39,764 nt of DNA from the NCBI GenBank assembly GCA_903844155.1, contig CAIMSU010000182.1, positions 1 through 39,764 of the forward strand, given 5' to 3'. The translations under genes were made by a program, and so were the position numbers. Below, piece by piece: positions 4,216-9,179 of this stretch; the stretch's first letter is position 1, and every line of letters begins with the position of its first letter. Under the pieces are notes generated by a model that had not been told where the DNA came from, did not search any database, and worked only from the letters and a program-made list of their open reading frames with translations. The stretch is from an uncultured Pseudomonadota bacterium (lineage in GTDB: Bacteria; Myxococcota_A; UBA796; SXON01).

Positions 4216-4316
4216 GCGAGGGGGGCCATTGCTGGCGCTGGGCAAACAAGCGAAGCGGAAGTACCTGAATTCACGCGGATGGGCAGGGCAATGGCCCCCC
4301 GGCGCGCGGTTCCGCG

Positions 4317-4362
4317 CACGAACCGTGCCGGCTGGCGTACTCGCCGGCTGGCGGGGTTCGTG
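4317..4362. repeat. long imperfect hairpin with TACT apical loop (copy a)
   Basis: Self-complementary 46-bp stretch. The inner stem runs from 4326 to 4337 and pairs with 4342-4353 (with G-T wobbles), closed by the loop TACT at 4338-4341. After one mismatch the outer stem CACGAACC (4317-4324) pairs with GGTTCGTG (4355-4362). There is no T-tract, so it is not a canonical intrinsic terminator. It shares its loop with three other hairpins in the window. Confidence 0.75.
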
Positions 4363-4385
4363 GCCTTGGAACGCCGAAAAATCAA

Positions 4386-4427
4386 CGCCGATCCTGGCGC
4401 GAGGTACTCCGAGCGCCAGAATCGGCG
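4386..4427. repeat. hairpin with GG-TACT-CC apex (copy b)
   Basis: Left arm CGCCGATCCTGGCGC (4386-4400) pairs with right arm GCGCCAGAATCGGCG (4413-4427) at 14 of 15 positions. The 12-base apex contains GG-TACT-CC at 4403-4410. It lies 23 bp after copy a. No poly-T follows on either strand. Possible roles are a REP-like mobile palindrome, a protein-binding site, or an mRNA-end structure for the gene ending at 4768. Confidence 0.75.
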
Positions 4428-4462
4428 GCGAATTGCGGGACCGTTGAGAGGGGAACGGGGGC

Positions 4463-4514
4463 CATGGGGGGCGTTTTGGCGCGTTTCCCGACTCATGCTG
4501 CGCGTTTTGGCGCG
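4463..4514 (+). repeat. paired 21-bp motif block, left
   Basis: Two direct copies of CATG-N5-CGTTTTGGCGCG at 4463-4483 and 4494-4514. Starts are 31 bp apart, about three helical turns, with a 10-bp spacer. The 12-bp CGTTTTGGCGCG part is identical in both copies. The same two-copy, 31-bp-period block appears inverted at 4664-4715. Confidence 0.8.
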
Positions 4515-4663
4515 CCGACGGCTCCCAACGACCCTCGTCCCCCACGCCGGCGCCGGAAGGCCCGGCGCGGAGGGCGTTCGGCGTCGCGGCGTGCGGAAGA
4601 ATGCAGGTTGTGCCGTGGGACCGACGACCGGCCCGGACGTGTCGACTCGGTTGCTGGCGGCAG

Positions 4664-4715
4664 TGCGCCAAACGCGGGGCCATGGGGTTCGGACCGCGCC
4701 AAAACGTGCACCATG
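4664..4715 (-). repeat. paired 21-bp motif block, right (inverted)
   Basis: On the minus strand, a full copy of CATG-N5-CGTTTTGGCGCG lies at 4715-4695. A degenerate copy at 4684-4664 has one T fewer and a final A. Their period is again 31 bp. The block mirrors the left block across a 149-bp centre. As an inverted pair the two 52-bp blocks match at about 34 of 52 positions, concentrated in the CATG and TTTTGGCGCG parts. Confidence 0.75.
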
Positions 4716-8175: not shown

Positions 8176-8217
8176 CCCCGTCTCAGAAACGCCCTACGCG
8201 ATTCTGAGCCCTGGTCA
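8176..8217 (-). repeat. REP element copy 1
   Basis: 42-bp element whose 27-bp palindromic core (8182-8208) has outer arms CTCAGAA and TTCTGAG. On the minus strand it contains GAATCGCGTAGGGCG and is preceded by TGACC. Immediately beside it on the TGACC side is the small palindrome GGTCA-AAAAA-TGACC (8213-8227). It lies between the RAYT stop and the beta-helix lipoprotein start. Confidence 0.85.
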
Positions 8218-9137: not shown

Positions 9138-9179
9138 TGACCGAGGCTCAGAATCGGGTAGGGCGTTTCTGAGACGGGG
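9138..9179 (+). repeat. REP element copy 2
   Basis: 42-bp element matching copy 1 at 39 of 42 positions in inverted orientation. The core 9147-9173 has arms CTCAGAA and TTCTGAG and contains GAATCGGGTAGGGCG. It lies upstream of the RAYT start and 36 bp before the start of the divergent beta-helix lipoprotein gene, in the position of a shared promoter region. The adjacent sequence includes GCGCCAAAAAATGACC. Confidence 0.87.

Follow-up and report, generated by a model that had tools for sequence, protein, structure and literature searches.

The parS site of the P1 plasmid is composed of two arms that carry two kinds of ParB half-site, with a bend site between them, and its helical phase matters; the arrays that we describe here differ from parS in their many chromosomal copies and in a core that is located much farther from the arms. 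In the lambda attP intasome, arm-type sites flank a core over ~240 bp, and DNA bending joins the arms to the core (PMC4880445); arm sites are likewise located on both sides of a palindromic core in our arrays, which differ from attP in their dozens of copies, their linkers of variable, integral-turn length, the variable central 6 bp of the core and their integrase-free neighbourhood. The ends of Mu, Tn7 and IS21 carry several direct repeats each, the two ends being inverted, and a tetramer is wrapped by the donor DNA (PMC10122671); the arrays share the several direct repeats per end and the inverted ends, but they have a 31-bp period (23 bp in IS21) and a phased internal core, and they show neither tips nor target duplications.

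In the operators of Lrp/AsnC regulators, successive sites are separated by two or three helical turns and thus share one face of the DNA, which is wrapped around an oligomer (PMC2995911). The three-turn spacing is shared by the arrays, whose sites are non-palindromic (Lrp sites are palindromes of ~15 bp) and form two inverted pairs around a distinct core, mostly off promoters. The motif of Escherichia coli DNA gyrase has a dyad centre and two flanks with phased A/T variation at 10.75 bp, and gyrase is enriched 3' of transcribed operons and in BIME-2, i.e. intergenic, multi-copy inverted-repeat elements (PMC6379681). The arrays resemble it in a dyad with A/T flanks phased at ~10-11 bp; they differ by the ~10.2-bp period of their lattice, by a sequence-specific core of ~23 bits and by four non-palindromic bipartite anchors at a quantised distance. 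REP and BIME elements are also intergenic and often located 3' of genes, as the arrays are, but REPs are palindromic hairpin units, which the 21-bp arm site is not.

The array in the window and its family

The window, i.e. the whole stretch of 39,764 nucleotides that we have analysed, is contig C182 of genome G000 (8.13 Mb in 375 contigs); its genes and its GC content of ~70% give an impression of Myxococcota. On its plus strand, the outer left arm site (4463-4483, CATGGGGGGCGTTTTGGCGCG) and the inner left arm site (4494-4514, CATGCTGCGCGTTTTGGCGCG) are both exact and are located 31 bp apart. They are followed by the left linker (4515-4595, no strand), of which the sequence is unconserved among arrays and the A/T steps are phased with the dyad in the family; by the core GAAGAATGCAGGTTGTGCCGTGGG (4596-4619, plus strand), with its dyad between 4604 and 4605; and by the right linker (4620-4663, no strand). 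On the minus strand, the inner right arm site (4664-4684) is degenerate (CATGGCCCCGCGTTTGGCGCA): it reads CATG-N5-GCGTTTGGCGCA, keeping its register and 8 of the 12 motif letters, and is located 31 bp from the exact outer right arm site (4695-4715, minus strand, CATGGTGCACGTTTTGGCGCG). The dyad of the core is located 90 bp from the left inner arm edge and 59 bp from the right one. The original prediction had described two direct and two inverted copies of the motif, each pair at 31 bp, around a centre of 149 bp: the layout stands and the centre (4515-4663) measures 149 bp, while the fourth copy is not exact, the window holding only three exact copies of CGTTTTGGCGCG. Overlooked at that stage were the central core at 4596-4619, the quantised linkers and the dozens of loci that have the same layout.

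The array in the window is genuine and belongs to a dispersed family of dozens of ~250-base sites. The pair pattern CAWGG-N8-TTGGCGC-N11-CAWGG-N8-TTGGCGC (F1), searched with up to 3 mismatches in the 8.13-Mb genome, has 40 matches, compared to 0 for the reversed control, which chance cannot account for. In a scan for single sites, where no spacing was assumed, the only same-strand distances of up to 120 bp are 31 bp (28 times) and 62 bp (once, in a three-site arm); the random genome-wide spacing that the original prediction had named as speaking against it is thus not observed. There are 20 F1 loci, every one of them intergenic, and 18 are complete, the other two (C203 and C327) being interrupted by a 209-bp repeat. 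Their common plan is composed of two direct bipartite sites 31 bp apart, a linker, a dyad core of ~24 bp, a second linker and, lastly, a pair of inverted sites, again at 31 bp.

At locus C342, the F1 array adjoins an array of another motif, CWGACnGGGGTCAAAWGTCGC (F2), which occurs in direct pairs at exactly 31 bp and in inverted orientation. The F2 pair pattern has 54 matches in the same genome, from which a sample of 26 F2 arrays has been extracted, including a hybrid array (C84, L260); the hybrid combines, in register, an outer half of the F1 type (GASTCAAGG at 7-15) with an inner half of the F2 type (TCAAATGTCGC at 20-30). TGKCGC is common to the inner halves of F1 and F2, which suggests that both units have diverged from a single bipartite site. 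The GANTC (GASTC) sequence of the F1 inner sites was considered as a methylation signal and dropped, since F2 does not contain it. Two loci vary in their make-up: C42 (L070:4741-5023) has three to four sites in its left arm rather than two, all spaced by 31 bp, and C367 (L072:269-521 and 634-907) is a tandem pair of arrays, i.e. an older duplication, with different linker lengths. When 400 kb of the same genome and 400 kb of G003 were scanned for other periods, from 18 to 65 bp, only coding repeats were found. The window has zero matches in an Rfam search; the reading of the array as RNA hairpins is ruled out by the non-palindromic single sites, by the unrelated linkers and by helical quantisation, which is meaningless for RNA.

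The 209-bp repeat is also found in the window (4220-4430, plus strand) as a neighbour of the array. It contains three hairpins and a core-like GATCGGCGTTGATTTTT, and has ~50 copies in the genome, some of which stand in tandem (at ~204 bp) and many of which are located where contigs end; the sister species G004 has its own, species-specific repeat of this type (copies L226-L245), which keeps the three-hairpin plan. The repeat or a piece of it adjoins 7 of the 20 F1 arrays. It has been rejected as a part of the array, given its variable places and orientations and its interruption of two arrays, and looks like a separate element of the same intergenic niche. Additional repeats of the window are located at 1-150, where at least eight other contigs begin with the same ~140-150 bases (99-100% identity), this being a high-copy repeat where the assembly breaks; at 789-887, a stretch of the SASASA-coding repeat region that matches dozens of places in G002-G004; and at 8176-8217 and 9138-9179, a 42-bp inverted repeat that is 93% identical, ~1 kb apart.

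The core and the quantised linkers

The core has been found by a Gibbs sampler that was fed the array centres only: it reads approximately GAAAAATCGGCGTTTGTCCGTG, or the palindrome ACGGAnAAA-N6-TTTnTCCGT, occurs in both orientations and has a specificity of ~23 bits, its central 6 bp varying among copies. When a core matrix trained on F1 was applied to 15 unseen F2 centres, 14 of them were found to contain the core, at quantised positions. On both sides, the distance from the dyad to the inner arm edge is 58-59, 69-70, 79-81, 90-91 or 99-101 bp, with a Rayleigh R of 0.97 at 10.4-10.6 bp and p ~1e-19 per side (n = 47; 47 of 48 arrays), and the number of turns is chosen independently on the left and on the right side.

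The sequences of the linkers, on the other hand, are unrelated: linkers of the same length are identical at the level of shuffled sequence (0.329 vs 0.325; 0.326 vs 0.327), and the arms alone match in BLAST comparisons between copies. What the linkers have in common is a lattice of A/T dinucleotide steps with a period of ~10.2 bp; counted from the dyad, its peaks are at 27-29, 38, 47.5, 58, 68.5 and 78.5 bp. The lattice is symmetric (the left and right profiles correlate with r = 0.79, and with -0.83 after a 5-bp shift), and a periodicity as strong at 10-10.5 bp occurs in 0 of 150 shuffles. Phased A/T-rich minor grooves are a known mark of DNA that is bent on a protein surface, and the gyrase motif has been likened to nucleosomes (PMC6379681); the lattice of the linkers may accordingly be read as a sign of DNA bending or wrapping. 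Linkers that retain no residual homology, next to intact sites and phasing, imply a constraint on each copy, which points to probable selection for geometry, where the sites, the dyad and the helical phase are kept and all else drifts.

The same architecture has been found in another genus of the family (G011), where a motif-blind scan of 255 kb has revealed one array with a third arm motif, the outer half of which is GCGMAG and the inner half TCGAAAGACCG, related to TCAAAWGTCGC. The F1 matrix scores its core, GAAAAACAGGCGTGCGTCCGTTTG, at 13.5, the next best score in 14 kb being 5.8, and the arms are located at 69 and 59 bp; this single array is a blind confirmation, in another genus, of the predicted core spacing. 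The original prediction had proposed that the phasing of the sites on one face of the helix is a layout for protein binding, and the quantised linkers (R = 0.97), the A/T lattice and the G011 array strongly support it.

Distribution, gain and placement of the arrays

Arrays are present in two of five genomes from the same genus. F1 is restricted to the species of the window: a search for its exact pair pattern in 85,000 GTDB species, in viral contigs and in 112 relatives has given zero matches. The sister species G004 has at least four arrays of the F2 type, with a drifted outer half (CCAAC in place of CWGAC); its C8 locus (L279:9789-10330) contains tandem arrays, i.e. a recent duplication of ~300 bp. 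Elsewhere in the class, 69 further genomes, G001-G003 among them, have given zero matches to the F2 pattern, and GTDB species only three: in Prevotella, in Advenella and in record CALQBK020000073.1. The first two have been set aside as chance matches, the one in Advenella belonging to plasmid RepA iterons: Advenella incenata NZ_SHKO01000006.1 (L222:7692-7968) has five CTCAAAAGTCGC iterons at 31- and 22-bp spacing, downstream of a plasmid RepA-like gene, and their half-site probably resembles the F2 inner half by chance. The third record (L223; 70% GC) is filed under Bifidobacterium breve, and its array is that of contig C73 of G004; the public record is mislabelled or mis-binned. Nothing has been found when 300 kb of G001 and G002 were scanned for the 31-bp period, or in a blastn search of phages and plasmids.

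Four sister species have 31-49 bp between the conserved flanks of C342, where the genome of the window has ~600 bp; one F2 and one F1 array make up the difference. At the window locus, too, most of the ~600 bp is missing in relatives. As pairwise identities among five species are star-like (79-85%), array gain in the lineage of the window is the simplest reading. The absence of the array from orthologous intergenic regions, which the original prediction had also named as speaking against it, is literally what is observed in the sister species, and it reflects such a lineage-specific gain rather than an artefact.

This history is an argument for the alternative that the arrays are MITEs, where the arm pairs would be transposase-binding terminal repeats (Mu/Tn7/IS21-like, or of another multi-site transposase), the core an internal transposition enhancer, and the F1, F2 and G011 types separate transposon families; we consider this unlikely, yet the most serious of the alternatives. 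The C342 operon junction has a lineage-specific insertion of ~570 bp, with empty orthologous sites in the relatives; the inverted site pairs can be read as terminal inverted repeats; tandem duplicates occur; and multiple direct repeats are known at the ends of IS21, Mu and Tn7 (PMC10122671). A mobile or once mobile origin, to which we give the same low probability, is best supported by patchy gain and loss together with several arm motifs within one genome. What weighs against MITEs is found at the edges and in the interior of the arrays: in 48 arrays, there is no convincing excess of flanking direct repeats of 2-10 bp at any symmetric offset, i.e. of target-site duplications, and no conserved tips beyond the outer arm sites; 0 of 50 neighbouring proteins is a transposase or integrase; the repeats of IS21 are 23 bp apart, compared to 31 bp here; the interiors are non-homologous between copies although the sites are pristine; and MITEs leave the interior phasing and the A/T lattice unexplained.

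The anatomy of arm-type sites that flank a core, in a complex of ~240 bp (PMC4880445), is also that of lambda-integrase-type attachment or recombination sites, where the arms would be bound by the N-terminal domain of an integrase and the core, an inverted repeat with a 6-bp spacer, by its catalytic domain, with IHF/HU-like bending. Such a role is doubtful: attP occurs once per element, and here dozens of complete arm-core-arm copies occur per genome; the central 6 bp differ among copies, and crossover between copies should therefore be blocked; no integrase is present among the tested neighbours; and in no case is cargo flanked by the array.

It is very improbable that the arrays form a regulon, in which a transcription factor on the arms would form a loop around a promoter-like core and in this way control the genes next to it. 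Three-turn spacing and wrapping are known in Lrp-type regulators (PMC2995911), and at a minority of loci the array is located upstream of a gene; however, the arm site is non-palindromic, unlike Lrp sites, the core is oriented either way, and the neighbouring genes have unrelated functions (aldehyde dehydrogenase, microcompartment shell, FeoB, RpiB, ICMT, MopE-type, beta-lactamase, PAP2 and others). Of the 36 arrays placed with a home-made gene caller, 14 are located between convergent genes, which is an excess over the background (8 of 82 gaps; p = 5e-4). The operator role that had originally been envisaged is disfavoured by the unrelated neighbours and the preference for convergent gaps. A Uma2-family gene is the neighbour of three arrays, at a distance of up to 70 bp (L068, L071, L155). 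Lastly, ordinary interspersed repeats under neutral decay, with inverted ends kept by chance, are hardly credible even with high-copy repeats such as the 209-bp element close by, being contradicted by linkers that are quantised on both sides and yet share no homology, across 47 arrays, three motif types and two genera.

A candidate nucleoprotein particle and its meaning

Judging from the sequence patterns, selection for geometry is more in line with a nucleoprotein particle than with the copy of a transposon or with a regulon. We propose that a dyad-symmetric nucleoprotein complex assembles on each array; its most likely role, at about an even chance, concerns the structure or topology of the chromosome, because of the placement mostly off promoters and the wrap-like lattice. 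While the architecture can be read from the DNA, the protein and the function that we assign to it are conjectural. The arm sites would be bound by one DNA-binding protein, with relatives of other specificity for the F1, F2 and G011 types, and the core would be held by a conserved protein; the linker DNA would be bent or wrapped, bringing the arms and the core into contact on one face and producing a compact particle of ~250-330 bp. The particle would be placed mostly off promoters, often between convergent genes, and, in the most speculative step, may act on chromosome structure or topology as a fixed loop, wrap or boundary, and not as a switch of neighbouring genes. The gain and loss of arrays between close relatives counts against this complex, since a housekeeping element of the chromosome seldom behaves in this way and mobile DNA is closer to it; an arm binder that is a domesticated transposase-like protein would fit both the particle and a mobile origin.

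No match to the combined features of the array has been found in the open-access full-text literature and among the families tested, where an overlooked precedent is possible. The combination that we put forward as new is that of paired, three-turn bipartite anchors, a dyad core at a variable integral-turn distance, a symmetric A/T lattice and unrelated linkers, in an interspersed, multi-copy element. More tentatively, and with less than even confidence, the arrays may represent a new class of bacterial chromosomal element, i.e. a wrapped particle, nucleosome-like and programmed by the sequence, in which the dyad core is conserved and the species-specific anchors diverge fast; built by a putative protein pair, it would set local topology or loop boundaries between genes.

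If this is true, a bacterium writes the positions of its wraps or loops in plain sequence, where the anchors, the dyad and the phase of the bend are legible, and the arrays would amount to a bacterial equivalent, readable from the genome, of positioned nucleosomes or loop anchors. They would also provide an evolutionary series, with three arm motifs, one hybrid, two genera and one conserved core, through which the proteins could be found; and even as a transposon, the phased core with unrelated linkers would make the array a new kind of element.
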